Assembly (NCBI GenBank): GCA_020831765.1
Contig: JAFIFY010000062.1
Location: 1 to 51,204, forward strand
From: Phycisphaeraceae bacterium
Lineage (GTDB): Bacteria; Planctomycetota; Phycisphaerae; Phycisphaerales; Phycisphaeraceae
Length of the DNA stretch: 51,204 bases
Reading direction: 5' to 3'
Shown here: piece after piece, positions 178 through 45,157 of the stretch
Numbering within the stretch: the first letter of the stretch is position 1
Layout of the letters: each line of letters starts with the position of its first letter
The notes under the pieces: generated by a model
Database searches by the model: none
Told to the model about the DNA's origin: nothing
What the model saw: only the letters and a program-made list of their open reading frames with translations
Made by a program: the position numbers and the translations under genes

Positions 178-3100
178 TCAGTCGTCGCCTGAAGCGGCGG
201 GAACCGGTTCGCCGGATTGGTCGAATCCTCGCTTGAGGCGAAATTCCTGAACCAAGCAGTAGAGCACGGGAACCGTGAACATGGTCAGGAGCACCATGCT
301 CATGCCGCCGACGCTGGGTATCGCCATGGGAATCATGATCTCAGCGCCTCGGCCGGTGGCGGTGAGGACCGGCAGCAGGGCCAGGATGGTGGTGGCCGAA
401 GTCATCAGACACGGTCGAACCCGGCGCAGCCCGGCGGCGATGGTGGCCTCGCGAAGTTCGGCGATGGTGGTGGGTCGTCGTCGATCAAAACTCTGGCGGA
501 GGTAGGTGGCGATGACCACGCCATCGTCGGTGGCGATACCGAACAGCGCAAGGAATCCGACCCACACCGCGACGCTGAGGTTGATGGCATGGAGCTGGAA
601 CAGATCGCGCATGTTGACGCCGAAGATGTCGAAGTTGGCGAACCACGGCTGGCCGTAGAAATAGATCATGGTGAACCCACCGGCCCACGCGACGGCGATG
701 CCGCTGAAGACGATCAGTGTCGTGGAGACGGATCGGAACTGGAAATAGAGGATGAGAAAGATCAGAGCCAATGATACCGGCAGCACCAGGCGAAGCGTCC
801 GGGCGGCGCTGATCTGATGCTCGTAAGTGCCCGCGAAGCGCCAACTCACACCTTCGGGAACGGTCAACGCGCCGGTCTCCACGAGGTGGTCCAGATAGTC
901 GCCCACCCGTTCGACCATCTCGACCTCGGCCAGCCCCGGTTGCTGCCCGAAGGTCACAAAGCCGGTCAGGTAGGTGTCTTCGGTGTAGATCATCTGCGGA
1001 CCGCGGGTAAACTCCACGGCGGCCAGTTCGCCCAGGGGAATCTGTGCTCCTGCGCGCGTCGGCACCAGTACACGTTCGATGGCGTCGATGTCATCGCGCA
1101 GCTCTCGCGGCAGGCGCACGCGCACCGGATATCGCTCACGGCCTTCAACCGTGGTGGTCAGGGCCTGTCCTCCGATCGCCGTGCTGATGATCCGCTGCAC
1201 TTCGGCCACGCGCAGCCCATGGCGGGCAATGGCATCCCGGTCGATTTGAATTTCCAGGTACGGTTTGCCCACCACCCGGTCGGCATTGACGGAACCGGCA
1301 TCGATGCCCGGCACCTGGCGAATGTGGGCCTCCATATCGAGCATAACCCGATCCAGCGTGGGCAGATCCGGCGCGCGCACTTTCACACCCATCGAGGCGC
1401 GCATGCCGGTCTGGAGCATGATCTGACGTGTCTCGATGGGTTGAAGCGGCGGAGCGCCGGTCGAGCCGGGGATGTCGGCCGCGCTGGACAGTTCGTTCCA
1501 GATGTCCCTGGGACTGCGAATATGGTCGCGCCATTGGCGATAGGGCCGACCGTGACGGGAACGATCCGGAATCAACTGACCGTCTTCATTGCGGACAAAC
1601 TCGCCGCGCTCATGAGCGAACTTGAAGCTCAATCGGCGTCCTGCCGCGTCGGTCTTGTACTCGGATCGGTAGTTGATCAGCGTCTCGATCATGGATACGG
1701 GGGCCGGGTCCAATGCACTTTCCACTCGCCCGATCTTGCCGACCACCTGTTCGACCTCCGGCACGCCGGCGATGGCCATATCCTGAAACTTGAGGATGTC
1801 CAACGCTTGGCCGATCGATGCGTGGGGCGTGGTCGTGGGCATCCAGAGGAAGGAGCCTTCATTCAATGGCGGCATGAACTCGCGGCCAAGGCCGGGAAAC
1901 TCATGGACCGCCCAGACCCACGGATCACTTTGCCGAATCGTTTCCGGTTCAATGCCCATGCGCTGCGCGGCGTGCGGCACGAAGGCGAACACGCGTTCAG
2001 CGCCCAGCCAGACGGTCAGCCCGAAGACGACCAGGAACGCCGGTATGCAGAGGAAAGCCGCCTTGTGCGCCAGGCAGAGGCGCAGGATCGAGGCATAGAA
2101 GTACTGGAAGATGTAAAAGGTGCCCAAGAGGCCGACGATCAGGCCGAACACGAAAATCAGGTTTCGTCCCAGACCGCGCTCAGGACCCAGGGGCTCCCAT
2201 AGACCGGTCAGCAGCCAACCCGTCGCCAGCACGGCCAGCACGGTGGCCAGCCATGGCACCAGGCGTGCCCCGCGACCGGCCATGCGGCCACCGCGTCGGA
2301 CTCGCTCGACGACCATATCGATCCGTTCAAGGAAGGGGACGAACCGGCTACTGAGCCCGCCGCCATCGTTCGCCCGCCGGCGGATCGCGGCCGACATCGG
2401 TTCCCAGAGAAGCTGAATCACCACAAGGCCCACCACGGCAAGCCCCGCGATCCAGACCACGCCCCAGCCCATCTCGACGCCGATCACCGTCGCGGCGATG
2501 CCCAGAACGCCCAGGCCAAATCGAAGTAATCGGCGGCCCTGACCGGGCCTGACCCGGCCGGCCACCAGCAGGTGGGTCAGCGCTGGAATCACCGTCAGCG
2601 TGACCATCGCCGCGCCGATCAGCACGAAGGTCTTGGTATAGGCCAGCGGGACGAACATCTTGCCTTCCGGGCCGGTCATGGTGAACACGGCCATGAAGCT
2701 GATCACGGTGGTGGCGATGGCGGTCACGATGGCCGAGCCGACCTCGCGCGTCGCGCGCAGGACGATCGGGAGGCGCGGCTCGGCCCGGTCGGCGGCTCGT
2801 AGGTGCCGGAGGATGTTCTCGGTGACGATGATGCCCATGTCGACGATGGTGCCGATGGCGATGGCGATGCCGGCCAGCGAAACCACGTTGCTGTCAACCC
2901 TGAACCACTTCATGAACAGGAAGCAGAGCAGCACGGCCATCGGCAACGTGGCGCTGATGATCAGCGACACACGGAAATGGAACACCATGATGAGCACGAC
3001 GATGATCGTGATGAGAATCTGCTGAATCAGGGCATCGCTGAGCGTCCCCAGGGTCTCATGGATCAGTCCCGTGCGATCGTAGAAGGGGACGATGTGGAGC

Positions 3101-4317
3101 TTGCTGACGTTGATCCACTCCGGCCAGATTTCACGGGGATGATCTTCACGCTGGAGCCACGCGAGCCATGCTTCCTGATTCAGTTCGGGAGAATCGGCCG
3201 ACCGGTAGGCTTCAAAACCATGCTCGCGAGCGAAGGCGCGGACCTGCTCGGGCGTTGTGCGGGTCCAGTCGATGATGATGCGTGACGGCAGGCCCGGTTC
3301 GATCACCCGGACCTGGTCCCGCACATTGTTGATCGCCGCCAGCGGGTTGTACCCTTCGCGGACGACCACCACGCCGCCGACCGCCTCGGCGCCGTTCTGC
3401 GTCAGCGCTCCGCGCCGGCCGGCCGGTCCCAGTTGGACCCGTGCCACATCACGCACCTGGACCGGTATATTTCCCGGACCCGTACCGACCACGGCGCTGT
3501 TGAGATCCTCGATCCGCCGCACGAATCCGACACCCCGCACCACGTATTCGACATCGTTGATCTCCGTCACGCCCGCCCCGACATCCAAATTGCTGTCGGC
3601 GATGGCGGCGTTCACATCGCTGATCGTCAGGCGGTAGGCTCGAAGCGCATCCGGATCGATATCCACCTGGTACTCGCGAACGAACCCGCCGACCGAGGCC
3701 ACTTCCGCAACACCTTCGGCGGCCAGCAGTCCGAAACGCACGATCCAGTCCTGGATCGATCGCAGTTCATCCAGGTCCCAACCCCCGATCGGATGTCCGT
3801 CCGGATCGCGTCCTTCGAGCGTGTACCAGTAGACCTGGCCCAGCGCCGTGGCATCCGGACCCAGCGTCGGCTGGACGCCTTCAGGAAGCACGCCCGCCTG
3901 TAGGCTGCTGAGTTTTTCGAGAATCCGCGCCCGCGACCAGTAAAACTCGATACCCTCATCGAAGATCACGAAGATCGATGAGAAACCGAACATCGAGCGA
4001 CTGCGCACCTCCTTGACCCCGGGAACACCCATCAGCGCGACGGTCAGTGGGAAGGTGACCTGATCCTGGATGTCCTGAGGTGAACGTCCGGGCCATTCGG
4101 TGAAGACGATCTGCTGGTTCTCGCCGAGATTGGGGATGGCATCGACAGGTATGGGCTGGCGCGGCAACCAGTCGATCTTCCAGTCGAAGGGCGCCACCAG
4201 CACCCCGCCAGCGCCGATCAGCAGCACCAGGAGAATTATGATGAGTTTCTGCTCAAGGCAGAAGCTGAGAATGGCATCCAGCGACGAGGTCCGCCGATCG
4301 GGAGGATGCTCGTTCAT
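178..4317 (-). CDS. cusA: CusA-like heavy-metal efflux RND pump, enlarged
   Basis: This is the inner-membrane pump of a tripartite RND exporter of the heavy-metal (HME) class, probably moving Cu(I)/Ag(I) out through the CusB- and CusC-like partners. At 1379 residues it is about 330 longer than usual CusA proteins. The normal N-terminal helix, porter-domain motifs (PIPVDAIPNLGENQQ, WPGRSPQDIQDQVTFPL) and the TM4-type segment with VSLAGIAIAIG are present. Two insertions stand out: about 50 residues near 350-405 in the porter region, and about 200 residues near 580-790 that add several hydrophobic helices between the two RND halves. The start ATG overlaps the cusB stop (ATGA), indicating translational coupling. 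Metal specificity is inferred from neighbours; the Met relay was not mapped. Confidence 0.93.
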   Translation of the reverse strand: MNEHPPDRRTSSLDAILSFCLEQKLIIILLVLLIGAGGVLVAPFDWKIDWLPRQPIPVDAIPNLGENQQIVFTEWPGRSPQDIQDQVTFPLTVALMGVPGVKEVRSRSMFGFSSIFVIFDEGIEFYWSRARILEKLSSLQAGVLPEGVQPTLGPDATALGQVYWYTLEGRDPDGHPIGGWDLDELRSIQDWIVRFGLLAAEGVAEVASVGGFVREYQVDIDPDALRAYRLTISDVNAAIADSNLDVGAGVTEINDVEYVVRGVGFVRRIEDLNSAVVGTGPGNIPVQVRDVARVQLGPAGRRGALTQNGAEAVGGVVVVREGYNPLAAINNVRDQVRVIEPGLPSRIIIDWTRTTPEQVRAFAREHGFEAYRSADSPELNQEAWLAWLQREDHPREIWPEWINVSKLHIVPFYDRTGLIHETLGTLSDALIQQILITIIVVLIMVFHFRVSLIISATLPMAVLLCFLFMKWFRVDSNVVSLAGIAIAIGTIVDMGIIVTENILRHLRAADRAEPRLPIVLRATREVGSAIVTAIATTVISFMAVFTMTGPEGKMFVPLAYTKTFVLIGAAMVTLTVIPALTHLLVAGRVRPGQGRRLLRFGLGVLGIAATVIGVEMGWGVVWIAGLAVVGLVVIQLLWEPMSAAIRRRANDGGGLSSRFVPFLERIDMVVERVRRGGRMAGRGARLVPWLATVLAVLATGWLLTGLWEPLGPERGLGRNLIFVFGLIVGLLGTFYIFQYFYASILRLCLAHKAAFLCIPAFLVVFGLTVWLGAERVFAFVPHAAQRMGIEPETIRQSDPWVWAVHEFPGLGREFMPPLNEGSFLWMPTTTPHASIGQALDILKFQDMAIAGVPEVEQVVGKIGRVESALDPAPVSMIETLINYRSEYKTDAAGRRLSFKFAHERGEFVRNEDGQLIPDRSRHGRPYRQWRDHIRSPRDIWNELSSAADIPGSTGAPPLQPIETRQIMLQTGMRASMGVKVRAPDLPTLDRVMLDMEAHIRQVPGIDAGSVNADRVVGKPYLEIQIDRDAIARHGLRVAEVQRIISTAIGGQALTTTVEGRERYPVRVRLPRELRDDIDAIERVLVPTRAGAQIPLGELAAVEFTRGPQMIYTEDTYLTGFVTFGQQPGLAEVEMVERVGDYLDHLVETGALTVPEGVSWRFAGTYEHQISAARTLRLVLPVSLALIFLILYFQFRSVSTTLIVFSGIAVAWAGGFTMIYFYGQPWFANFDIFGVNMRDLFQLHAINLSVAVWVGFLALFGIATDDGVVIATYLRQSFDRRRPTTIAELREATIAAGLRRVRPCLMTSATTILALLPVLTATGRGAEIMIPMAIPSVGGMSMVLLTMFTVPVLYCLVQEFRLKRGFDQSGEPVPAASGDD

Positions 4318-6356
4318 CGAGACTCCACTTCCACCAGGGTTTCGACGATCTCACCGCAACGAAGCATGGATGCGCCGTGGTAGGGATTGGCGATTTGTTG
4401 AACGTCCTGAAGCCAGAATCCCTCGCGGCCATTCACCATCGGGCACATTGCCCGATAGACGGTCGCGGTTCCGGTCACACCGAACACGCGGACCATCTCC
4501 GTCAGGTGATCGCTGAATGCCTCGAAGCGCTGACGCTGGTTGGCAAGGTCTTCCTCAGTGCCCAGGGCCTCGAGCGCTTCAGCCATCGTTCGCTTGGAAT
4601 CGCGCCATCGCTTCTGCGCCTCTTCCTCGAGCTCATCAACCTCGATGGCATCGAGCACCGCGCGGACATCTTGCGATCGTCGGCGCGCCTGCTCGGGGGA
4701 GTCTCCGGCCAGACTTTCGACCAGGCCGAAGTTGGCCTGAATCAGGCGTCCCAGCGCGGCCTGAAATTCCTCCGGTGCCTCCAGGGGCTTAACATCCGGA
4801 TCGGCGCCCGGTCGCCGGGCCTGTTCATCACCGTGATCGTGGGCCGGCGCATGATCGCCGGCGGGCTGCATCATGCTCGGTCGCCCCTTGAGTTGAAGCT
4901 CGGCATCCAGCCGGAACGCGCCGCGCGTCACCACGAGCTCGCCTTCCTCCAGGCCATCGAGCACCACGTACCAGTCACCGGCCTTCGGCCCAAGCAGAAC
5001 ATCACGGCCTTCGAATGACGGGCGCTCCTGATCCGGCAACTGCACATAGACCACCGCGCGTCGCCCGGTGATCAACGGCGCGCTGGCGGGAATCACCACG
5101 GGCGGTCGGCCGTGCCGCTCGGGATCATCCTCCGGTTCGTAAATTCCATGGGATCCTGGATCATGATCCCCCGGATGCTCCTGATCATCCGTCTTGCCGT
5201 CCGTCCGCATCATGGCCACGGCCGAATCACTCAGCTTCGCCTCGACCGTACCGCGTACGAACATGCCCGGCTTGAGTCGGCCATCGGGGTTGGGCACATC
5301 CGCCCGCACCCGCACAGCGCGCGTGGCTTCGGTCACCGTGGGTTCAATGAATGTGATCTTTCCCTCGAAGGTCATCCCAGGGAAGCTGGGCATCACAAAA
5401 CTCACCTTCTGGCCCAGGGCCAGCCAATGCAGCTCCGATTCAAAGACTTCCATGCGGCTCCAGAGATGTCCAAGGTCCGCAATCCGGTACACGGGCTGTC
5501 CGGTGGCAAGATAGTCGCCCCTGGCGGCCTGGCGTTCGATCACCGTGCCTCCGATCGGTGCGCGAATGGTCACGTAGTCTTCCACTTCACCACGATCGAT
5601 GAGTTGATCAATCTGTTCAGCGGTCATGCCCAGAAAACGCAGTCGGTCACTCGCCGCCTGAACGGTCCGTTGCGCTGACTGGCGATCGCGGTCTGTGTCC
5701 GCGGGTGTGAAAAGCCCGCTTGCCCGGTGGGCCTGGAGCAACTCTTCCTGCGCGGCGATGAGTTCGGGGCTGTAAAGATCGAAAAGCGGGTCGCCTTGGC
5801 CGACCGTGGCGCCGGTGAAGTCGATGTGCAGTCGTTCAATCCTGCCCGGCACCCAGGCGGTGACCGTCTTGAGTCGTGTCTCGTCGTAGGCGATCTGCCC
5901 GAAGAGTCTCACCGGCACCGTGATGTCGCGCCACTCGGCGGGTTGAACCTGGAGCTGGAGCAGCGCCAGGGCACGCTCACCGAGACGAAGGCGCGGCAAC
6001 TGATCGTCTTCATCATCGTCATCGGCGCGCACCGGTATCAGCGACATGCCGCAGTACGGACAAGGGGCGTTGGGATCAGACAGACGAACCTGTGGATGCA
6101 TCGAGCAGGTGTACAACTGCTGGCGGCCATCACCCACGTCGACCGGTTCGCCCGGGGGTGCATCGGAAGATGGGCCGCCCAGATGCATGCCGATGCCGAT
6201 GCCGACAATGATGAAGATGGCCACCGCGACGCCGCGCAGGTAGGGATACGCCGCTTCCCAGAGGCGACGGCCGGTTGCCGGCGAGGTTGGCGCATTCGAT
6301 TCGGCCGACTGGTCGTCGTGACCCGGAGGGCTGGTCTCGGATTGGTCGCGGCTCAT
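4314..6356 (-). CDS. cusB: CusB-like periplasmic adaptor with two metal-binding domains
   Basis: This is the membrane-fusion adaptor of the efflux system, 680 residues. One membrane anchor lies at about 41-59. A heavy-metal-binding domain at 81-109 has Cys84, Met86, His87, Cys99, Cys102 and Met104 (YTCSMHPQV, PCPYCGMSLIPV). HlyD-type barrel and hairpin domains follow at about 130-370. A His/Asp-rich insertion sits near 380-420 (HPGDHDPGSHG). The C-terminal ~130 residues resemble DUF3347, with MCPMVNGREGFWLQ and a late NPYHGASMLRCGE motif, a second likely copper site. The start codon overlaps the cusC stop by ATGA, and its stop overlaps the cusA start. The combination of metal-binding domains points to copper or silver rather than Zn/Co/Cd, an inference. 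Confidence 0.93.
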   Translation of the reverse strand: MSRDQSETSPPGHDDQSAESNAPTSPATGRRLWEAAYPYLRGVAVAIFIIVGIGIGMHLGGPSSDAPPGEPVDVGDGRQQLYTCSMHPQVRLSDPNAPCPYCGMSLIPVRADDDDEDDQLPRLRLGERALALLQLQVQPAEWRDITVPVRLFGQIAYDETRLKTVTAWVPGRIERLHIDFTGATVGQGDPLFDLYSPELIAAQEELLQAHRASGLFTPADTDRDRQSAQRTVQAASDRLRFLGMTAEQIDQLIDRGEVEDYVTIRAPIGGTVIERQAARGDYLATGQPVYRIADLGHLWSRMEVFESELHWLALGQKVSFVMPSFPGMTFEGKITFIEPTVTEATRAVRVRADVPNPDGRLKPGMFVRGTVEAKLSDSAVAMMRTDGKTDDQEHPGDHDPGSHGIYEPEDDPERHGRPPVVIPASAPLITGRRAVVYVQLPDQERPSFEGRDVLLGPKAGDWYVVLDGLEEGELVVTRGAFRLDAELQLKGRPSMMQPAGDHAPAHDHGDEQARRPGADPDVKPLEAPEEFQAALGRLIQANFGLVESLAGDSPEQARRRSQDVRAVLDAIEVDELEEEAQKRWRDSKRTMAEALEALGTEEDLANQRQRFEAFSDHLTEMVRVFGVTGTATVYRAMCPMVNGREGFWLQDVQQIANPYHGASMLRCGEIVETLVEVESR

Positions 6357-7825
6357 TGCGGTTCTCCGGGTTGAAAATCGGGCAGCGGTCCGCCCAGTGC
6401 CTGGGTCAGGTCAGCCACCGCACGGTGCATGTCGGCGATGATCCGGACACGATCGGCCTGGTCATCCAGCAGTCGCTCCCAGTCATCCAGAAGCTGCAGC
6501 AACGTGATATCGCCCGTCCGGTAGGAAGCCATTGCCAGATCGATGATCCGCTCGGCATCGGGAATCATGCGTCTTTCGAGCCGCCGCAGCATCGACTGAT
6601 TGAACTCCAGTCGCGCGATTGCTTCCTCCACTTTAAACCGAAGCTCATCCCGGGCCGCCTGCGCCTGGGCGCCGGCCCGGCCCACGCCGCGCAGGGCTTC
6701 ACGCTCGCGGGCATCATCGCGCCCCACCCAGATCGGGATGCTCATGCCCACCATGCCCATGATCTCATCCTCCTGGCTTGCCATGCCGTTGCCGCCAGCG
6801 CCCACCCGCCCGTATTGAACGCCGAACATCAGTTCCGGCATCCGCTCTCGCCGAGCCAGCGTCAATCGCCGGTGGTAGGTCTCCGCCTCGGCCTGGGCCG
6901 ATCGAACCATCGGGCTCTGATGTCCGGCAAGCTCAGCCAGCGCGCGGGCATCGAGATGGATCGGCGACCAGGTCAATCGCCCGAACTCGGCCGCCGCGCG
7001 ATCTTCAACTTCCCCGGGCGGAAGATCGAGCGAGTTGGCGGTATCCGCCCCCGGGGATCGTGGCATCGCGATCTCCTCGAGCGTGGGCAGTTGTGTCGCC
7101 CGGCGGAGCATCGCCAGGGCGGTGGCCCGACGACTTTGAAGTTCGTCGATACGGTTTTCAAGTTGGCTGATGCGACGGGAAACGCGCAGCAGATCGCCTT
7201 GGGTGGCATCGCCGATGCGCATCCGTGCCCGCACGGTCTCCTCGATTCGCTCCAATAGCCGCCGGTTTCGTTGGAGAATCTCGATCTGGGCCGAAATGCC
7301 GATGTAGGCCCAGTAAGACCGCCGGACATCGCCCTCGATGCGATCGATCAGGGCTTCGAGCTGATGTCGGGCCTGCTGGACCTCCTGGCGGGCCACCTCC
7401 CGTCGCGCATGAAGTGTCCCGGGGAAGGGCAATCGCTGCTCCAGACCGACGGTAAAGTCCATATCCATCTGACCGAACCCGACCCTCGCCATCGGGTTGG
7501 GAGGAGCGCCGGCCTGGGCGATGCGCTCCTGGAGTTGTTCGATGCGCAGGTGCGCGGCCTCGACCTGGGGATTGGCGGTGATGGCGCGGGCGAGCAGGTC
7601 GTCCAGGGTCGGCTTTCGATCGGTCCATGGAGGCTGATCAACGCGGCTTGAGCTTGGGTGCCCGGGCCCGCCGGCATCCTCGCGGGCCTCGACCACCGAT
7701 CCCAGCGAATGCGCGGATCGATCGCCGCTGATCCATTCATCAAACGGCTGGTTTCTCTGGCAGCCCGCCGACAGCAAGAGCCCGCCGGCCAGAATCATCC
7801 CAAGCCGTGAGGTTGATGATCTCAT
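6353..7825 (-). CDS. cusC: CusC/TolC-family outer-membrane efflux lipoprotein
   Basis: This outer-membrane channel of the RND efflux system has 490 residues from the chosen start. The open frame extends 20 codons further upstream, but that would overlap the preceding gene. The ATG at 7825 gives MRSSTSRLG, then a hydrophobic stretch ending LLLSAGC, a lipobox typical of CusC. Two long coiled-coil repeats with OEP-type segments are visible (for example ANPQVEAAHLRIEQLQERI and AQAEAETYHRRLTLARRERMPEL). There is no strong Shine-Dalgarno, fitting translation coupled to the upstream lipoprotein gene 31 bases away. It overlaps cusB by four bases. Confidence 0.9.
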   Translation of the reverse strand: MRSSTSRLGMILAGGLLLSAGCQRNQPFDEWISGDRSAHSLGSVVEAREDAGGPGHPSSSRVDQPPWTDRKPTLDDLLARAITANPQVEAAHLRIEQLQERIAQAGAPPNPMARVGFGQMDMDFTVGLEQRLPFPGTLHARREVARQEVQQARHQLEALIDRIEGDVRRSYWAYIGISAQIEILQRNRRLLERIEETVRARMRIGDATQGDLLRVSRRISQLENRIDELQSRRATALAMLRRATQLPTLEEIAMPRSPGADTANSLDLPPGEVEDRAAAEFGRLTWSPIHLDARALAELAGHQSPMVRSAQAEAETYHRRLTLARRERMPELMFGVQYGRVGAGGNGMASQEDEIMGMVGMSIPIWVGRDDAREREALRGVGRAGAQAQAARDELRFKVEEAIARLEFNQSMLRRLERRMIPDAERIIDLAMASYRTGDITLLQLLDDWERLLDDQADRVRIIADMHRAVADLTQALGGPLPDFQPGEPQ

Positions 7826-7856
7826 GGATAGAGTCCGGCGGAACGACCCGCGCCGT

Positions 7857-8138
7857 TTAGTGATCATGCGCGGCCTTGGCTTCATCGAGCTTGCTCAGAT
7901 AGCGTTCCGGGTTCTCATTCAGGGCGTCAATGCAGCCGTCGCAGCAGAGCTTGACCTGCCGGCCTTCGACTTCGACCGTGATCGGACCACCCATGGAATC
8001 GAGCTTTTCGCCGCTGACGACGCAGGTGTCCAGCGGATAGTCGGCTTCGACCGTCCTCTCAGTGGTCTCGGTGGTCTCGGTACAGCCATTCAGGGTCAGA
8101 AACAGGGTTGTGACGGCGACGGTGATCATGGATCGCAT
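7857..8138 (-). CDS. Small YHS/TRASH-like metal-binding lipoprotein
   Basis: First gene of the efflux operon, 93 residues. A signal peptide ends in a lipobox-like LTLNGC with the candidate lipidated Cys at 19. The mature part resembles YHS/TRASH metal-binding modules: DTCVVSGEKLDSMGGP (Cys39), a short beta region, then KLCCDGCIDAL (Cys65, Cys66, Cys69) and an ERYL tail. Such modules bind copper or related soft metals, so it may chaperone metal to the CusB adaptor. AGGAG lies 7 bases before the ATG. Transcription probably starts near 8165 from the ECF-type promoter described separately. The exact metal and role are inferred. Confidence 0.85.
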   Translation of the reverse strand: MRSMITVAVTTLFLTLNGCTETTETTERTVEADYPLDTCVVSGEKLDSMGGPITVEVEGRQVKLCCDGCIDALNENPERYLSKLDEAKAAHDH

Positions 8139-13433: not shown

Positions 13434-14231
13434 TCAGGCCGCGCTGTTGTGCCGACGCCGAAGCAGCAGCAGGCCGCCGATGCCCATCAGCGCCAGGCTG
13501 GCCGGCTCGGGGACAATGGTCAGGACGATGTCGGACTGGGCCGGGTCGGCCTGATCGATGCCTTTGGCGAAACGGACATCGGGGCCGGGGATGCCCAGAT
13601 CGGACTGCGACAGCAGGATCATCGTCAGTGTGTTGTTGGTGTCGGCGTTGATGAAGTCGGCCAGAGCGCCTCCGTTGATCGAGAAGGTGCCGGTGTCGTT
13701 GCCCACCACATCGAAGGTGCCCAGCAGCGTGGTGTTGGCCGGATTCACCGAGGGCCCGCTGGACTCGAAGCCATTTTGCACATCATTGCCAGGGGCGTCC
13801 ATCCAAGTGACATTCTGAGCCCAGAAGTCCAGTGCCTGGTCGGTCATTCCGTAGACGGCGAAGGTGAAGGTCTCGCCGACGCGATTGGTGTTGCTGTAGC
13901 TGACGATGTTGAAGCTGAGGCTGCTGGCCGGCGCGGCGGCGAAGTCCAGGTCGGAGATGTCGAACTGGAGCCACACCTTCTTGCCGCGACGATCGGTACC
14001 GGCGTTCTTGACGTTCATCGGGTCGCCGGCGTTGCCCGCACCACCGGGTTCGGATGAGCCCTTTTCGATGCTGATGGCCTGCTCGGGGTTGATCGTGAGC
14101 AGGGCTGCGCTGGCCTGGTCGATCGCCGGGCCGAGCCCCAGCGACAGGGCCACGACGCAGGCGGCCCCGGTCAAACGGCCATGGATTTGTCCGCGGCGGA
14201 GCGCCCGTGAATCGGTGGTTCGGATCGTCAT
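13434..14231 (-). CDS. PEP-CTERM secreted protein with DNRLRE-like domain
   Basis: Exported protein of 265 residues. Signal peptide at about 20-43 (GAACVVALSLGLGPAIDQASA), then a beta-rich domain with KKVWLQFDISDL and APASSLSFNIVSY, resembling DNRLRE-type domains. The C-terminus is a textbook PEP-CTERM signal: VPEPASLAL, a hydrophobic helix and RRRHNSAA. Proteins of this kind are cut and released by exosortase; no exosortase gene lies in the window. AGAGAGG precedes the ATG by 7 bases. It is divergent from the XylR-like regulator across a 172-bp gap that contains a candidate regulator half-site. The function of the mature domain is unknown. Confidence 0.88.
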   Translation of the reverse strand: MTIRTTDSRALRRGQIHGRLTGAACVVALSLGLGPAIDQASAALLTINPEQAISIEKGSSEPGGAGNAGDPMNVKNAGTDRRGKKVWLQFDISDLDFAAAPASSLSFNIVSYSNTNRVGETFTFAVYGMTDQALDFWAQNVTWMDAPGNDVQNGFESSGPSVNPANTTLLGTFDVVGNDTGTFSINGGALADFINADTNNTLTMILLSQSDLGIPGPDVRFAKGIDQADPAQSDIVLTIVPEPASLALMGIGGLLLLRRRHNSAA

Positions 14232-15803: not shown

Positions 15804-15832
15804 TGCCGCGCCACCTGCGGGCCTAGATTGTG

Positions 15833-16633
15833 ATGATGAAACCGACAACATGGCGGCCTAAACATTGCCGGTTCGGCTTTACCCTGATCGAACTTCTGGT
15901 GGTCATCTCGATCATCGCGATCCTGTTGGCCATCCTCTTGACCGCGCTGGGCGGCGTCCGGGAAGTGGCACAATCGACCAAATGTTTGTCGAACCTGCGC
16001 AGCATTGGCTTGTCGATCACGACCTACGGCATCGATAACAAGCAGATCATCCTCCCCTCGGAACTGCATCGCGGGGGCACTTGGATCGACACCTGGTCGA
16101 CGATGATGATTAATGCCGGCATGCTCAATGCTCCGCAGACCGGCGGAATGGCCGACTTCGCCGATGGCGACCATATCTTCCGCTGCCCCAGCGGACTGCC
16201 CGCAGGCAACGAGTTCATCCGCCCTGTGGATCGCTTCGACGGCTACGGTGCCATGGCCACACCCAACCGGTCGAACAACGATCACCACCAGCCCTACTGG
16301 ATCGGCAACTGGTACGGGGCCAACGGGTATCACAACTTCGCGCCCACCCCCTCGCCGTTCCCGTTCAAGCGGGTCAACTTCAACAACGCCAACTTCGAGC
16401 GCCTCGACCGCGTGCGCCAGCCCAGCAGTGCCTTTGCCATCTACGATGGCTGGTATTACCACAACGATGGTGGAAGCTGGCCCCGCATCACCTTCGCCGA
16501 GCAGCACAACGCCCGTCACCTCGGGCAGACCCGCGCGAACATGGTCCACTTCGACGGCCATGCCTCATCGCTCGTGTCCGATGAACTCGCCGAAATGAGC
16601 CACGATGACCCCCGCCTGCGGGCCATGGAATGA
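15833..16633 (+). CDS. Prepilin-leader (type II pseudopilin-like) protein
   Basis: Single-pass protein of 266 residues with a type IV prepilin leader: short basic N-terminus, then [20 protein letters not shown], cut before Phe by a prepilin peptidase. The large C-terminal domain is aromatic- and Asn-rich ([31 protein letters not shown]), ending [18 protein letters not shown], a tail common in planctomycete DUF1559-like or H-X9-DG pseudopilins. Such proteins occur in dozens per genome, often beside regulators and polysaccharide genes; the function is unknown. In-frame starts are GTG 15830, ATG 15833 and ATG 15836. No Shine-Dalgarno is visible, and a leaderless start is possible. Confidence 0.88.
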
Positions 16634-18623: not shown

Positions 18624-19523
18624 ATGTTCAGCCAATACTACCGTCTCTCCGGTCGCCTTACGTCCCGTTCGTTGCCGGTGGGTCTTGGGGGAACGTTAGT
18701 TGCGTCGGTGCTTCTGGGGCTGGTTTATGGCCTGGTGGTCTACTGGGTGCCGTTCATTTATGTGCTGTTTCTGGCGACGGCGGGCGCGGGATTCGCGGTC
18801 GGTGGGATCGCGTATAACCTGGCCATCTGGTCCCACACGCGCAATGGCCTTCTGGTTCTGGCCGCGTCGGTGCTTGGTGCGGTGACCGCCTATGTGGCTT
18901 CGTTTTTCAGTTGGGTCTTCGTGCTGGCTGATTACGACTGGGGTGTCCTGGCCCCGGCATCCATGATTCGAGCGATCCACTGGATCATCGAGAACGGAAC
19001 ATGGACGCTGGGATCGGGCGGCTCGGCCAATGTCAGCGGATTGCCGCTGTTGCTGATCTGGCTCGGCGAGTTCGCCATCATGCTGGGCGTGGCGGTGTAT
19101 ATCGGCTGGAAGCAGTTTGGCGAAGCGCTCTATTGCGAAGAGACGGGCGACTGGATCAAGAATATCGAACTGGTGGGTCCGTTCATGGGCATCGAAGATC
19201 CCGATGATGTCCAACGTAAGGTCGAGGCCAATGATTTCTCGTGGATCGAGCAGTTGCGTCCCTTCGAGGTGGAAGAAGACGAAGAGTCGGTCAAGCTCCC
19301 GCGAAGCTTCAAGTCGTCCGAGATGGTACTGGCCGGTTCCGAGGCGACGTACCTGGTGACGCTCCGGAACGTGACCAACATCGTCGATAAACAAGGGGCC
19401 GTGACTCGGCGGGTCAGGCCGATTCTCCGCAACCTGACCGTCGATCGTGAATCGTTCGAACTGATCCGCCAGATCGGAGAACAAGCCGCGGCGGACCCCG
19501 ATTCCACCGAGCCGGCGGGGTGA
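18624..19523 (+). CDS. Four-helix membrane protein of unknown function
   Basis: This 299-residue protein matches no family I know. Start ATG 18624 has GGGAG upstream; an upstream in-frame start is less likely. About four hydrophobic helices occur: LGGTLVASVLLGLVYGLVVYW, VPFIYVLFLATAGAGFAVGG, GLLVLAASVLGAVTAYVASF, and LPLLLIWLGEFAIMLGVAVY. A soluble C-terminal region of ~120 residues (KQFGEALYCEETGDWIKN, FSWIEQLRPFEVEEDEESVKL) is acidic and likely cytoplasmic. It precedes the M50/HlyD fusion by 96 bp in the same direction and may be part of the same export machine. A role as accessory membrane component is inference. Confidence 0.8.
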   Translation: MFSQYYRLSGRLTSRSLPVGLGGTLVASVLLGLVYGLVVYWVPFIYVLFLATAGAGFAVGGIAYNLAIWSHTRNGLLVLAASVLGAVTAYVASFFSWVFVLADYDWGVLAPASMIRAIHWIIENGTWTLGSGGSANVSGLPLLLIWLGEFAIMLGVAVYIGWKQFGEALYCEETGDWIKNIELVGPFMGIEDPDDVQRKVEANDFSWIEQLRPFEVEEDEESVKLPRSFKSSEMVLAGSEATYLVTLRNVTNIVDKQGAVTRRVRPILRNLTVDRESFELIRQIGEQAAADPDSTEPAG

Positions 19524-19619
19524 GCGCTATTCCGCTCAGGGATCATCTTGACTTGAACCCGGTCCCGAGCGGATGATATCCGTACTCGACGTTTGCCTTT
19601 CATCCGCTCGGAGTGTGTT

Positions 19620-21845
19620 GTGCCTGTCGATCGACCGACGTTCAGCGAGTTCTGGTACCGCGTGGCGGACCTCAAGCCGCGGCTGCGCAGTGTGGTGCAG
19701 ATTGTTCGCCAGAGCTATCGGGGTGAGATATGGCATGTGCTGTGCGACCCGGCGGGCAATCAGTATTTCCGGCTGGATGAGCCGGGCTACCACTTTGTCG
19801 GAATGCTCGACGGCAGGCGGACCATTCGCGAGGCATGGGAGGCGTGCAATCAGCTTCTGGGCGATTCGGCCCCGACGCAGGGCGAGGCGATCCAGCTCAT
19901 GGGCCAGCTTCACGTGGCCAACCTGCTGCAGGGCGATATTCCGCAGGATGCCGCATCCCTGTTCGAGCGGCAGCGGAAGCGCATCAGCCGCGAGTTTCGC
20001 GGCTACATCAGCAACTTCCTCTTCATCCGCTTCCCGCTGTTCGATCCCAACCGGCTTCTGGAAATGTGGGTCGGCGCCCTGGGCTGGCTTTTCGGGCCGG
20101 TGGGCTGGGTGTTATGGCTGATCCTGATCGGCGCGGGTCTGGCGACCGTTGCCGGCCGGACCAGCGATCTGCTCCTGCCGGCCAACCAGGTGCTCGATCC
20201 TTCCAACCTTCTGTGGCTGTACCTGGGCTTCGGTCTGGTCAAGGCGTTGCACGAGTTGGGCCACGGTCTGGCGTGCAAGCGTTACGGCCTGATCAATGGT
20301 GGGGGGGGTGATGTGCATACGCTGGGCATCATGCTCCTGGTGTTCATGCCGGTGCCTTATGTCGATGCTTCGAGCAGTTGGGCGTTCCGCAGCAAGTGGC
20401 AGCGCGCGTTCGTGGGCGCGGCGGGCATGTATGTCGAGCTGGCCGTGGCGGCTGTCGCCGCGATGGTCTGGGCCTCGACCAACCCCGGGACCGCCGTCAA
20501 CGCCATCGCCTGGAACATGATCTTCGTCGCCAGCGTCTCGACCATCCTCTTCAACGCCAATCCGCTGTTGCGCTTTGATGGCTACTACATCCTCTGCGAT
20601 CTGCTGGAAAGCCCCAACCTCGCCCAGCGCAGCAAGGATTACTTCTACTACCTGGTCAAGAAGTACATCTACAAGGTTCGCCGTCCGCGTGATCCTTCGC
20701 AATCGAGCGTCGAGCGGCCGTGGCTTCTCTTCTATTGGGCCGCTGCGCTGGTCTATCGCGTGTTCATCAGCATCAGCATTCTCTGGTTCGTCGCCCAGTC
20801 GCTGTTCTTTGTCGGCGTGGTTCTGGCACTGGCCGCGATCACCATGTGGGTCATCGTGCCCCTGGGCAAGCTGATCAAGTATCTGCTGACCAATCACGAA
20901 CTGAACCGGACGCGCGGCCGGGCGGTCGCGGCCACCGGAGGCTTCGCCCTGTCGCTGGTGGTGCTCCTGGGCATGGTTCCGATGCCCGATTACAGCCGGG
21001 CGCAGGGGATTGTCGAGCCTGTGCGGCTGGCCGGTGTGTTCGCCGCGGGTGATGGATTCCTGGCCTTGGACGGCCATGGAGAATCCGGCAGCCTGCCGGC
21101 CTCGGGCCAATGGGTACAGGTCGGCCATTCGCTGGGATCGATCAAGAGCCTGGAAACCGAGCGCCGTCTCGGTTCGGTCCGGGCTCAGATCGAGCGGACA
21201 CAAGCCCTGCTGGAGATCGAGCGGCGCCGGGATGGCGGCCGCGTGGCCGTGCTGCTGGGCGAACTGGAAGTGCTCGAGCAGGAAGCGCGGACCCTGGAGC
21301 GCGAGCTGGAGCGATTGGCGGTGCCGGCGCCGATGGATGGCGCCTGGATCAGTGATCGCGATCGGATGCTCGGTGGTTATGTTCAGCGCGGCCAGGCCCT
21401 GGGCCGTGTGGCGGCGGTGGATGAGCTGCGCCTTCGACTGGTGACGACGCAGGACTTTGGGCCTCGCCTCGAGCGTGAACTGGGGCTGGGCGCGAAGGCC
21501 GAGGTGCGCCTGCTGGGCCGACCGGATGTGATCTTTGCCGCGCGCATACATCAATTCCTGCCCGCCGGCTCGCAGGAATCGCCATCGGCGGCGCTGAGTT
21601 ATCACGTGGGCGGCGCGATTCAGACGGCCATGGATGACCCCGACGGCCGCCGCACCGTGGACCGCATCTTCGAGGTCGTGCTCGAGCCTGAGACCATTCC
21701 GCGCAATGCCGAGGGAGAGCCGCTGATCCGTCCCGGCCAGCGCATCGTGGCCCGCTTCAAGCTTCCCGACCGACCGCTGGCTTCACAGCTTTATCTGCGC
21801 GTCCGGCAGTTGGTCCAACGCAAGCTCATCATGGGAGATGGCTGA
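19620..21845 (+). CDS. PqqD-like / M50 site-2-type protease / HlyD-like adaptor fusion
   Basis: Membrane protein of 741 residues with three parts. Residues ~25-105 resemble a PqqD-type winged-helix domain (the RiPP-recognition fold). Residues ~150-450 form a polytopic M50 zinc protease with HELGH at 211-215 and, about 105 residues later, NANPLLRFDGYYIL, whose Asp320 supplies the third metal ligand; both catalytic motifs are intact. Residues ~480-741 look like an HlyD-type periplasmic adaptor: barrel-sandwich halves around a short coiled coil (LEIERRRDGGRVAVLLGELEVL). GTG at 19620 is chosen because GGAG ends 6 bases before it; a TTG at 19593 is possible. The stop overlaps the secA-like ATG by one base. 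Together this suggests substrate recognition, cleavage and export. Confidence 0.88.
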   Translation: MPVDRPTFSEFWYRVADLKPRLRSVVQIVRQSYRGEIWHVLCDPAGNQYFRLDEPGYHFVGMLDGRRTIREAWEACNQLLGDSAPTQGEAIQLMGQLHVANLLQGDIPQDAASLFERQRKRISREFRGYISNFLFIRFPLFDPNRLLEMWVGALGWLFGPVGWVLWLILIGAGLATVAGRTSDLLLPANQVLDPSNLLWLYLGFGLVKALHELGHGLACKRYGLINGGGGDVHTLGIMLLVFMPVPYVDASSSWAFRSKWQRAFVGAAGMYVELAVAAVAAMVWASTNPGTAVNAIAWNMIFVASVSTILFNANPLLRFDGYYILCDLLESPNLAQRSKDYFYYLVKKYIYKVRRPRDPSQSSVERPWLLFYWAAALVYRVFISISILWFVAQSLFFVGVVLALAAITMWVIVPLGKLIKYLLTNHELNRTRGRAVAATGGFALSLVVLLGMVPMPDYSRAQGIVEPVRLAGVFAAGDGFLALDGHGESGSLPASGQWVQVGHSLGSIKSLETERRLGSVRAQIERTQALLEIERRRDGGRVAVLLGELEVLEQEARTLERELERLAVPAPMDGAWISDRDRMLGGYVQRGQALGRVAAVDELRLRLVTTQDFGPRLERELGLGAKAEVRLLGRPDVIFAARIHQFLPAGSQESPSAALSYHVGGAIQTAMDDPDGRRTVDRIFEVVLEPETIPRNAEGEPLIRPGQRIVARFKLPDRPLASQLYLRVRQLVQRKLIMGDG

Positions 21846-23881
21846 TGAGCGCCGGCCCGATGCGCCCGATGATCGGTCCCGGCGGCGCTGTCGATCCGGT
21901 GGGCGAAGCCGGCGCCTGGCGCAACCTGGCTTCGGCGAATCTCCATCCCCGGTCGTTGCAGGGGCTGGATAAGGTCTGGCAGGTGATCGCCGGGCGGCTG
22001 GATGGGATCAAGCCCAGGCGATGGCTGTTTCTGCGCGAAGCGTCACGGATCGTTGTCGAGTCGCGCGCCCTCGAGCACACGGCCGATGCGGTGTTGCGCC
22101 AGGAGTTGCTTGATCTTCGTGAATGGTTCCGGCGCGGCCGCGCTGATCGCCTGATGGTTCGCCGCGCCTTGGCTCTGCTGCGTGAGGCGGCCTGGCGACA
22201 GACGGGCCTGAAGCCATATCGCGTGCAGGTGGCCGCGGCGCTGGCGTTGTGGCGGGGCTGCCTGGTGGAACTGGCCACGGGTGAGGGCAAGACGCTGTCG
22301 GCGGGTTTGGCGGGCGTGATCGGCGGCTGGCGCGGGCGAGGCTGCCATGTTGTGACCGTCAATGATTACCTGGCCCGCCGCGATGCCGAACAACTGCGCC
22401 CGCTCTACCGCTTCGCCGGGGTTTCGGTGGGATTGGTTCAACAGGAAGACGGCCCGGCCCAACGGCGCGAAGCTTACCAGGCCGATGTCACCTATCTGAC
22501 CAACAAGGAAGTATCGGCCGACTACCTGCGTGATCGTCTGGCGATGGGGCCGACCGGTGGATTGTGCCCGGCGCTGACCGCATCCATCGCGGGCGAAGGC
22601 GCGGCCGGAGGCGGACGGGTGGTGCAGCGCGGCCTGGATACGGCCATCATCGATGAAGGGGATTCGATCCTGATCGATGAGGCGGTTACGCCGCTGATCA
22701 TCTCCGGCGATGGCCCCAATCCCGAGCAGATTCAGGCCTATTCCCAGGCCGCCGAGGCGGCCGGCAAGCTGGTCGAAGGCGAGCATTACCGACTCGACCG
22801 GCGATATCGCGAGGTGAACTTCACACGCGGTGGCCGCCAGCGGCTGCGCGACATGCTCGAACCGGAGGGCGGTATCTGGTCCGGAGCGCGGCGGCGCGAG
22901 GAGATGGTCAATCAGGCGCTGGTGGCACGGCATTTCTTCCTGCACGGCGATCAGTACATCGTCAGTGATGAGGGCAAGGTGGTCATCGTCGATGAGTTCA
23001 CCGGCCGGACCATGCCCGATCGCACCTGGCGCGATGGGCTGCATCAGGCCGTCGAGGCCAAGGAGGGGCTGGAGATCCAGCCCGAGAAGATCACTCTGGC
23101 CCGTATCAGCTTTCAGCGATTCTTCCGTTTGTATCGAAAGCTGTCGGGCATGACCGGCACGGCGTGGGAAGCGCGCCGGGAGTTCTGGTCCATCTACCGC
23201 CTGCCCGTGGTCCGCATTCCCACCCATCGCCCCTGCATCCGAAAGCAATGGCCGGATCAACTGTTGGCCGGCCATGAAGAGAAGTGGGAGCGCGTGGCAC
23301 AGCGCGTTGAGGAACTGCATCAGGGCGGCCGGCCGGTCCTGATCGGCACGCGAACCATCGAGGCCAGTGAGAAGCTCAGCGAACGGCTGACCGCCAGAAA
23401 CCTGCCGCACCAGGTGCTCAACGCCGTTCGTCACGAGCAGGAAGCGATGATCGTCGCCGAGGCTGGAAGATTGAAGTCGATCACCGTGGCGACCAACATG
23501 GCCGGACGAGGCACGGACATCCGGCCGGATGCCGAGGTCGTACGGCTTGGTGGGCTTCACGTGATCAGTGCTGAGCGCAACGATGTCCGCCGCATCGATC
23601 GCCAGCTCTTCGGCCGAACCGGCCGGCAGGGCGACCCGGGCACGGCCGAGGCGATCCTTTGCCTCGAGGATGACCTGTTCAAGCGTTACGCACGCGGCTG
23701 GCTGTGGCGAATCGGGCGCGGATGGATGCATGTGCCGATGCTTGGACACTGGCTGGAACGTTGGCTGGTGGCCGGAGCGCAGAAGAAGGCGGCCCGGATC
23801 ATGCGCCGCCAGCGCGAAGGTGTGCTCAAACAGGATGACTGGCTCCGCGAGTATCTGGGCTTTGCCCGGCGGGAAAGCTGA
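21845..23881 (+). CDS. Divergent SecA-like ATPase (accessory translocase motor)
   Basis: SecA-family motor of 678 residues, shorter than the usual ~900. NBD1 carries Walker A ATGEGKT (about 144-150), TVNDYLARRD and Walker-B-type DEGD at 270-273 (usually DEVD), followed by SILIDEAVTPLIISG. The regulatory NBD2 has IGTRTIEASEKLSE, TVATNMAGRGTDI and FGRTGRQGDPG. The C-terminal zinc-finger and linker of canonical SecA are absent, and the scaffold/wing region is shortened. It overlaps the M50/HlyD fusion gene (TGATG) and is thus translated with it. A housekeeping SecA is presumably encoded elsewhere. Export of a special substrate with the preceding gene is inferred. Confidence 0.92.
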   Translation: MSAGPMRPMIGPGGAVDPVGEAGAWRNLASANLHPRSLQGLDKVWQVIAGRLDGIKPRRWLFLREASRIVVESRALEHTADAVLRQELLDLREWFRRGRADRLMVRRALALLREAAWRQTGLKPYRVQVAAALALWRGCLVELATGEGKTLSAGLAGVIGGWRGRGCHVVTVNDYLARRDAEQLRPLYRFAGVSVGLVQQEDGPAQRREAYQADVTYLTNKEVSADYLRDRLAMGPTGGLCPALTASIAGEGAAGGGRVVQRGLDTAIIDEGDSILIDEAVTPLIISGDGPNPEQIQAYSQAAEAAGKLVEGEHYRLDRRYREVNFTRGGRQRLRDMLEPEGGIWSGARRREEMVNQALVARHFFLHGDQYIVSDEGKVVIVDEFTGRTMPDRTWRDGLHQAVEAKEGLEIQPEKITLARISFQRFFRLYRKLSGMTGTAWEARREFWSIYRLPVVRIPTHRPCIRKQWPDQLLAGHEEKWERVAQRVEELHQGGRPVLIGTRTIEASEKLSERLTARNLPHQVLNAVRHEQEAMIVAEAGRLKSITVATNMAGRGTDIRPDAEVVRLGGLHVISAERNDVRRIDRQLFGRTGRQGDPGTAEAILCLEDDLFKRYARGWLWRIGRGWMHVPMLGHWLERWLVAGAQKKAARIMRRQREGVLKQDDWLREYLGFARRES

Positions 23882-44418: not shown

Positions 44419-44429
<11 letters not shown>
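44387..44429. repeat. Junction repeat at the tRNA-Pro 3' end, copy 2
   Basis: CTCCTGCTCTATTTTT leads into a 9-bp stem-loop TTTTTCGGC-TTC-GCCGAAAAA (44398-44418), then T-CGGGGTG, the discriminator and 3' acceptor strand of tRNA-Pro. A near copy is at 43141-43180. Confidence 0.6.

Positions 44430-45157
<728 letters not shown>

Follow-up and report, generated by a model that had tools for sequence, protein, structure and literature searches.

The window analyzed in this study is a stretch of 51,204 nucleotides from a Phycisphaeraceae bacterium (assembly GCA_020831765.1, contig JAFIFY010000062.1), here contig C170 of genome G000, which comprises 4.7 Mb in 193 contigs. Its positions 18624-23881 harbor three co-directional genes encoding a membrane protein, a fusion of a PqqD-like RRE (recognition element of RiPPs, ribosomally synthesized and post-translationally modified peptides) with an M50 protease and an HlyD-like adaptor, and a short SecA-type ATPase. 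With a probability of roughly two thirds, the fusion and the short SecA form the core of an exporter dedicated to large and giant proteins, in which an N-terminal LEPR/LEDR-x-LL tag replaces the Sec signal peptide. The locus itself is an ordinary, non-unique member of a gene module that was published in 2015 (PMC4452313) and has hitherto been uncharacterised. New here is the link between tag and exporter, which provides the module with its likely cargo and signal.

Co-occurrence of the fusion with LEPR-tagged proteins

Tagged proteins were detected with the NCBIfam model NF012209 (LEPR-XLL, LEPR-8K), which represents an N-terminal motif, at its curated cut-off of 17 bits; in genome searches, tagged proteins of G000 and of its relatives passed this threshold. 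The consensus of the tag reads [LF]-E-x-L-E-[PD]-R-[VLI]-L-L-S-[AG]-[DTS]. It resided within 150 residues of the frame start in 70 of 72 matches, a set which was partly fetched by the tag and thus informs on position, not on frequency. A stretch of 14 residues with a mean hydropathy of at least 2.0, as would be typical of a signal peptide, preceded the tag in none of 81 tagged N-termini. In G000, two proteins exceeded the cut-off in the genome search; the protein scan repeated one of them, the other scoring 16.8 with its long frame, and a third gene, lying in tandem, was recognised by eye. One of the three genes, on contig C187, encodes a protein of 2218 aa (DUF7948, SBBP, CARDB, dockerin); of the tandem pair on contig C142, one product has 1980 aa (PKD, dockerin) and the other no fewer than 1190 aa. 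The open-licence literature yielded no paper tying LEPR-XLL to an export machine; later papers may exist elsewhere.

Within the family of the window, the fusion was found in 46 of 51 genomes, some of the other five being incomplete. Tagged proteins were present in 39 of the 51 genomes and in none of the five in which the fusion was not found (p = 3e-4). The association was also seen in 244 genomes of the phylum with a completeness of at least 90%. The tag occurred in 16 of 23 planctomycetes with a strong fusion match (350 bits, a line set after the list was seen) and in six of the 221 others (odds ratio 82, p = 3e-15), and omission of the window's family still gave p = 9e-9. When any fusion match was accepted, the tag was present in 20 of 74 genomes with and in 2 of 170 without a match (p = 8e-10). 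Among 41 other genomes or plasmid records selected for the fusion, 33 contained the tag (five out of five plasmids), with tagged frames of up to 14,390 aa. It was represented by a single weak match in 288 alphaproteobacteria without a fusion detected at E 1e-60, and was absent from 14 well-known control genomes. The comparison of 33/41 with 1/288 (Fisher, 1e-36) sets a mixed-phylum collection against an alphaproteobacterial background and indicates a large effect, not an exact probability. As supporting evidence, we note that 16 of 32 Planctomycetia carrying a distant fusion were matched by the LEDR profile A3, against 0 of 40 planctomycetes lacking one; two of the tested genomes had contributed to the training of this profile, and its positives are closely related and mostly from few genera. 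Tagged frames of 12,000-14,390 aa were encountered in Sulfuritalea, Verrucomicrobia, gammaproteobacterial and Dyella genomes (e.g., G293:C11:76104); few bacterial proteins are longer.

A scan of named genomes disclosed at least 561 relatives of the fusion, of which the best 80 were compared regarding their neighborhood, a SecA-type gene being counted within 10 kb. The hosts of these 80 fusions belong to Planctomycetota, Verrucomicrobiota, Kiritimatiellae, alpha-, beta-, gamma- and deltaproteobacteria, Nitrospirota, Spirochaetales, Elusimicrobia, Fibrobacteres, Omnitrophota and Rokubacteria, a range of about ten phyla. GAF-HlyD adaptor genes were located near 76, SecA-type genes near 74 and genes for a small HlyD-type adaptor near 60 of the 80 fusions. 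Fusion and SecA genes are thus paired far more often than chance would allow, and the adjacency that had been noticed in the window extends far beyond this one genome.

Tagged genes also reside within or next to such loci. Plasmids of alphaproteobacteria carry, in this order, a giant tagged gene and the genes for DUF3467, GAF-HlyD, the fusion, SecA, the small adaptor and TolC, some records missing one part; in two plasmid records the giant gene of the fusion operon is annotated as "LEPR-XLL domain protein". In Dyella sp. OK004 a tagged frame of 12,776 aa stops approximately 5 kb ahead of the TolC, GAF-HlyD, fusion and SecA genes. Some short SecA genes are detached from the fusion; those of G020 and G050 (L112, L114) have DUF3467 and tagged giant genes as neighbors, those of G191 and G102 (L120, L124) LEDR-tagged genes. 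By use of a position matrix, the tag or its variants (LEDR, LEQR, LEER, MESR) were found at the beginning of 21 long frames belonging to loci of the fusion or of SecA. DUF3467 (e.g., L034:5726-6046) is a small protein recurring in the module, its gene either separating the giant tagged gene from that of GAF-HlyD or accompanying detached SecAs; a literature search on DUF3467 yielded nothing, and it was not located in G000. A gene for a TolC-type outer-membrane factor lies in or near the locus of several relatives, the window operon containing none. No ABC transporter was found among the typed genes of the window locus and of the annotated loci. In the plasmid records H33-H41, a distant relative annotated as HlyD adaptor (28.7% identity over residues 126-420) is present on Escherichia and Citrobacter plasmids, and also in Azospirillum, Burkholderia and Variovorax; it probably represents a separate subfamily.

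Anatomy of the fusion and of the short SecA

The arrangement of the three genes in the window (Table 1) corresponds to that given by the first-pass annotation, whose description of a PqqD-M50-HlyD fusion with the motifs HELGH and NPLLRFDGYY was affirmed by profile matches, the motifs themselves and an AlphaFold2 model. GTG at position 19620, which is located behind GGAG, is the likelier start codon of the fusion; residue numbers given here are counted from the alternative TTG at 19593. Matches to the Pfam families PqqD (E 4e-4) and Peptidase_M50 (E 5e-6) were both slightly below the Pfam cut-offs, RND_mfp was matched with E 5e-5, and the match to daptide_HExxH (NF041824; E 8.5e-48, 163.4 bits) did not reach the curated cut-off of 300 bits. 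The model, which was based on an alignment of 59 related rows excluding plasmid-derived ones, attained a mean pLDDT of 91.2 and a pTM of 0.81. Using VIA-align, its residues 27-117 matched lasso-peptide B1 RREs whose structures had been solved with a leader peptide (6jx3, 5v1u, 5v1v; Z 9.2-9.5), and residues 463-737 matched MacA, MexA, AcrA and EmrA (Z 13-16.6). The M50 middle part had no counterpart among the matches listed, which is uninformative since adaptor matches fill the list. HExxH was kept in 44 of 44 fusions, and H220, E221, H224, N321, N323 and D329 were invariant in the 59 aligned fusions. The invariance of the zinc-binding and catalytic residues H220, E221, H224 and D329, along with the conservation of HExxH, suggests that the M50 domain is an active protease.

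The gene of the short SecA shares one base with the fusion gene (TGATG, position 21845). Its product gave matches to SecA_DEAD (3e-92), P-loop_SecA and PP_bind and aligned to residues 33-605 of the Bacillus subtilis SecA, so that the truncation and the overlap reported in the first-pass annotation were both confirmed. An AlphaFold2 model (pLDDT 86.7, pTM 0.84) matched residues 16-609 of the same protein with Z 43 (VIA-align). The short SecA contains NBD1, PPXD (the preprotein clamp), NBD2 and the first scaffold helix and lacks the helical wing, the two-helix finger and the C-terminal tail. Helical wing and two-helix finger are the parts of SecA that engage and work on SecY; because the chain ends at approximately residue 605-609 of the B. 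subtilis protein, they are missing here. In a phylogenetic tree, 61 short SecAs formed one clade apart from nine housekeeping SecAs (SH-aLRT 100), the sequences of Kamneva et al. 2015 not being among those included.

G000 encodes another, full-length SecA, a housekeeping protein with a frame of 1379 aa on contig C134 (G000:C134:86295-89477, L044). Thus, the window SecA is a paralogue and not the only SecA of the organism. The housekeeping SecAs of the relatives are similar in length; with 901 aa, SecA of Escherichia coli is much shorter. At least two SecA proteins were present in 46 of 46 genomes with the fusion, even where the short SecA was encoded far from it, and exactly one in six of six fusion-less genomes (p = 5e-8).

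The gene upstream of the fusion starts with an ATG preceded by GGGAG. Its product exhibits four hydrophobic segments, as judged by eye, and gave no matches in Pfam and NCBIfam scans. The gene occupies the place that in most relatives is taken by the GAF-HlyD adaptor gene (HLYD1), and relatives of it were not found in any of the other fusion loci compared. It is probably not a conserved part of the module; as a candidate for such a component, which the first-pass annotation had seen in it, it was discarded.

Table 1. Genes of the module locus in the window and the domains and motifs they encode
Feature	Positions	Strand	Basis
Four-segment membrane protein, 299 aa	18624..19523	+	reading frame; profile scans
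PqqD/RRE-M50-HlyD fusion gene, 741 aa from GTG 19620 (750 aa from TTG 19593)	19620..21845	+	profile scans; AlphaFold2
RRE/PqqD-like winged-helix domain, residues 27-117, candidate LEPR-tag binder	19671..19943	+	PqqD match; VIA-align
M50 site-2-protease-like membrane domain, residues 118-461	19944..20975	+	Peptidase_M50 and daptide_HExxH matches; invariant catalytic residues
HELGH zinc-binding motif (H220, E221, H224)	20250..20264	+	HExxH conservation
NPLLRFDG motif, third zinc ligand D329	20559..20582	+	invariant N321, N323, D329
HlyD/MacA/AcrA-like periplasmic adaptor domain, residues 463-737	20979..21803	+	VIA-align
Short SecA-type ATPase, 678 aa	21845..23881	+	profile scans; AlphaFold2; VIA-align; tree
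Walker A motif TGEGKT of the short SecA	22277..22294	+	motif

Proposed export route and alternative explanations

The data support the notion of an export machine with parts for recognition, proteolysis, periplasmic bridging and ATP hydrolysis, as it had been put forward in the first-pass annotation, and the module likely exports the tagged proteins. In the route that we propose, the cytosolic RRE/PqqD domain of the fusion would bind the LEPR/LEDR tag. The short SecA, which retains the DEAD motor and the polypeptide clamp and not the parts engaging SecYEG, would serve as motor and hand the chain over to the fusion itself or a channel formed by it, while the M50 domain may clip at or near the tag (LLS[AG]). 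The HlyD-like domain of the fusion, the GAF-HlyD adaptor and the small adaptor would provide a periplasmic conduit to a TolC-type pore. A leader-recognizing role of the PqqD-like part had been suspected from the outset and survives in this modified form, whereas the small modified peptide that had been considered as substrate is not supported: the evidence favors large or giant LEPR/LEDR-x-LL proteins, which are encoded elsewhere in G000. Near the window genes no candidate for a small RiPP precursor was recognised, a dedicated search not having been made; the conserved partners are DUF3467 and large tagged genes. More tentative, and in our estimation somewhat short of an even chance, is the idea that the module constitutes a separate class of machines in about ten phyla, independent of SecYEG and powered by SecA, with an RRE that reads the tag, an intramembrane protease that removes it and a TolC conduit as the exit of giant surface proteins.

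Several observations weigh against the proposed exporter. By the NCBIfam model, seven of the 23 planctomycetes with a strong fusion match lacked the tag, and two tagged genomes were without a fusion. Physical proximity of tag and fusion genes in the 244 genomes was modest (three cases seen, 0.34 expected, p = 0.005) and was dropped as main proof. The lineages that contributed to the co-occurrence are not independent, several genera being closely related. In G000 the GAF-HlyD gene, which lies isolated (G000:C96:61690-63579), and the three tagged genes are situated on contigs other than the window's, and a dedicated partner TolC was not identified in this genome. Furthermore, two fusion loci encode SecA-like proteins without a Walker A motif (L107:5056-7203, - strand; L127:9157-11109, + strand), which retain other features of the fold in part and are perhaps structural partners and not motors. 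At the loci of Thalassospira (L038) and of an Omnitrophota metagenome-assembled genome (L207), there was no SecA within reach. Because of these four loci, SecA may not always be the motor.

It is very unlikely that the fusion and the tagged proteins are functionally unconnected and only coincide in lineages whose genomes are large and complex. The close relationship of several genera, by which the counts are non-independent, would agree with such a coincidence, but the link was seen in several phyla and against the alphaproteobacterial background, it held without the window's family, and tagged genes are situated within the loci or next to detached SecAs. M50 proteases frequently have signalling roles, and the protease could belong to a pathway of regulated intramembrane proteolysis acting on an anti-sigma factor or similar, SecA being a neighbor by descent. 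Although the GAF domain of the partner HlyD adaptor and a gene for an ECF-type sigma factor near the locus of one relative (L045) would suit this explanation, we regard it as the least probable of all, given the covalent junction of the M50 domain with a MacA/AcrA-like adaptor, the TolC genes in some loci and the link to the tag. A function of the RiPP type, similar to daptide or epipeptide systems, in which a small modified peptide would undergo maturation by the PqqD-M50 part and export by the adaptor, is highly improbable. It would explain the RRE fold and the fact that the daptide intramembrane protease is the top family match of the N-terminal half of the fusion. However, the score of this match remained far from the cut-off (163 against 300 bits), no peptide-modifying enzyme was identified at the window locus or at those annotated loci that were examined, and the fusion is linked to cargo genes that are large.

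The main rival of a dedicated exporter is passage of the tagged proteins through SecYEG, assisted by the short SecA in the manner of an accessory SecA2; the fusion would later remove the tag and sort the proteins to the outer membrane. Retention of the motor and the preprotein clamp in the short SecA is compatible with this explanation, as are the SecA2-only pathways of Gram-positive bacteria, which use the housekeeping channel (literature cited in PMC4452313). Yet the short SecA is devoid of the wing and the finger engaging SecY, and a hydrophobic signal-peptide core was found in none of the tested tagged N-termini. We therefore consider passage through SecYEG unlikely and prefer the dedicated exporter.

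Relation to known systems and other genes of the window

Kamneva, Poudel and Ward (PLoS One 2015, PMC4452313) described "secondary SecA_DEAD" proteins without the wing-scaffold domain in Planctomycetes, Verrucomicrobia and Proteobacteria, the second SecA being encoded beside genes for M50 (with HlyD domains), GAF-HlyD, HlyD and sometimes OEP proteins. They regarded the SecA/M50/HlyD module as related to type I secretion and proposed that SecA, replacing the ABC ATPase, hydrolyzes ATP, with the pore provided by the M50 protein, the broader role being "completely unknown". The view of the first-pass annotation that the machine is undescribed can thus not be upheld. Common to this module and the window is a second SecA_DEAD protein without the full wing-scaffold, encoded next to a Peptidase_M50-HlyD gene; GAF-HlyD, adjacent in most relatives, is present in G000 but on another contig. 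The text of PMC4452313 mentions neither a substrate, a signal or LEPR nor a PqqD/RRE domain or DUF3467. Our analysis adds the LEPR/LEDR-tagged cargo, the RRE fold, the invariant protease residues, the DUF3467 partner and a wider range of hosts.

With type I secretion (HlyB-HlyD-TolC) the module shares HlyD-type adaptors, a TolC-type pore in some loci and very large cargo. It differs in that the place of the ABC transporter is taken by an ATPase of the SecA type together with an M50 membrane protein, and in that the tag is N-terminal, whereas the signal of type I secretion is C-terminal. As in accessory Sec systems (SecA2 or SecA2-SecY2), a second SecA would serve a subset of proteins, but the window SecA lacks wing and two-helix finger and is genetically tied to M50-HlyD; no second SecY turned up in the scans, which included no search aimed at SecY. 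The daptide HExxH protease (NF041824) and the YydH/LiaK proteases correspond to residues 30-420 of the fusion, comprising a PqqD-like and an M50 part. Unlike the daptide protease, the fusion, which scores below the family cut-off, possesses an additional HlyD domain and is associated with large proteins instead of a RiPP pathway.

Elsewhere in the window, a complete tripartite operon for resistance-nodulation-division (RND) efflux is located at 178-7885 (- strand). It encodes an AcrB-type pump (1379 aa), a CusB-like adaptor carrying DUF3347 and a heavy-metal-binding domain, and an outer-membrane factor, the OEP gene at 6353-7885. Since this operon already makes up a whole pump of the heavy-metal type, adaptor and pore included, it was rejected as a part of the module. 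The window also contains genes for a PEP-CTERM-type protein (13434-14231, - strand; C-terminal end VPEPASLALMGIGGLLLLRRRH) and for a prepilin-type N-methylation protein with a weak DUF1559 match (15830-16633, + strand). The sole RNA gene detected in it is that of a tRNA-Pro (TGG; 44419-44492, - strand).

For giant bacterial proteins of 5,000 to 14,000 residues, the way out of the cell is often unknown. The link between tag and module pairs a short N-terminal tag with a defined set of exporter genes, by which each of them gains a partner that can be tested. If it is true, there would be a SecA-driven route of the TolC type with an N-terminal signal, and a domain for the recognition of RiPP leaders would serve protein secretion.

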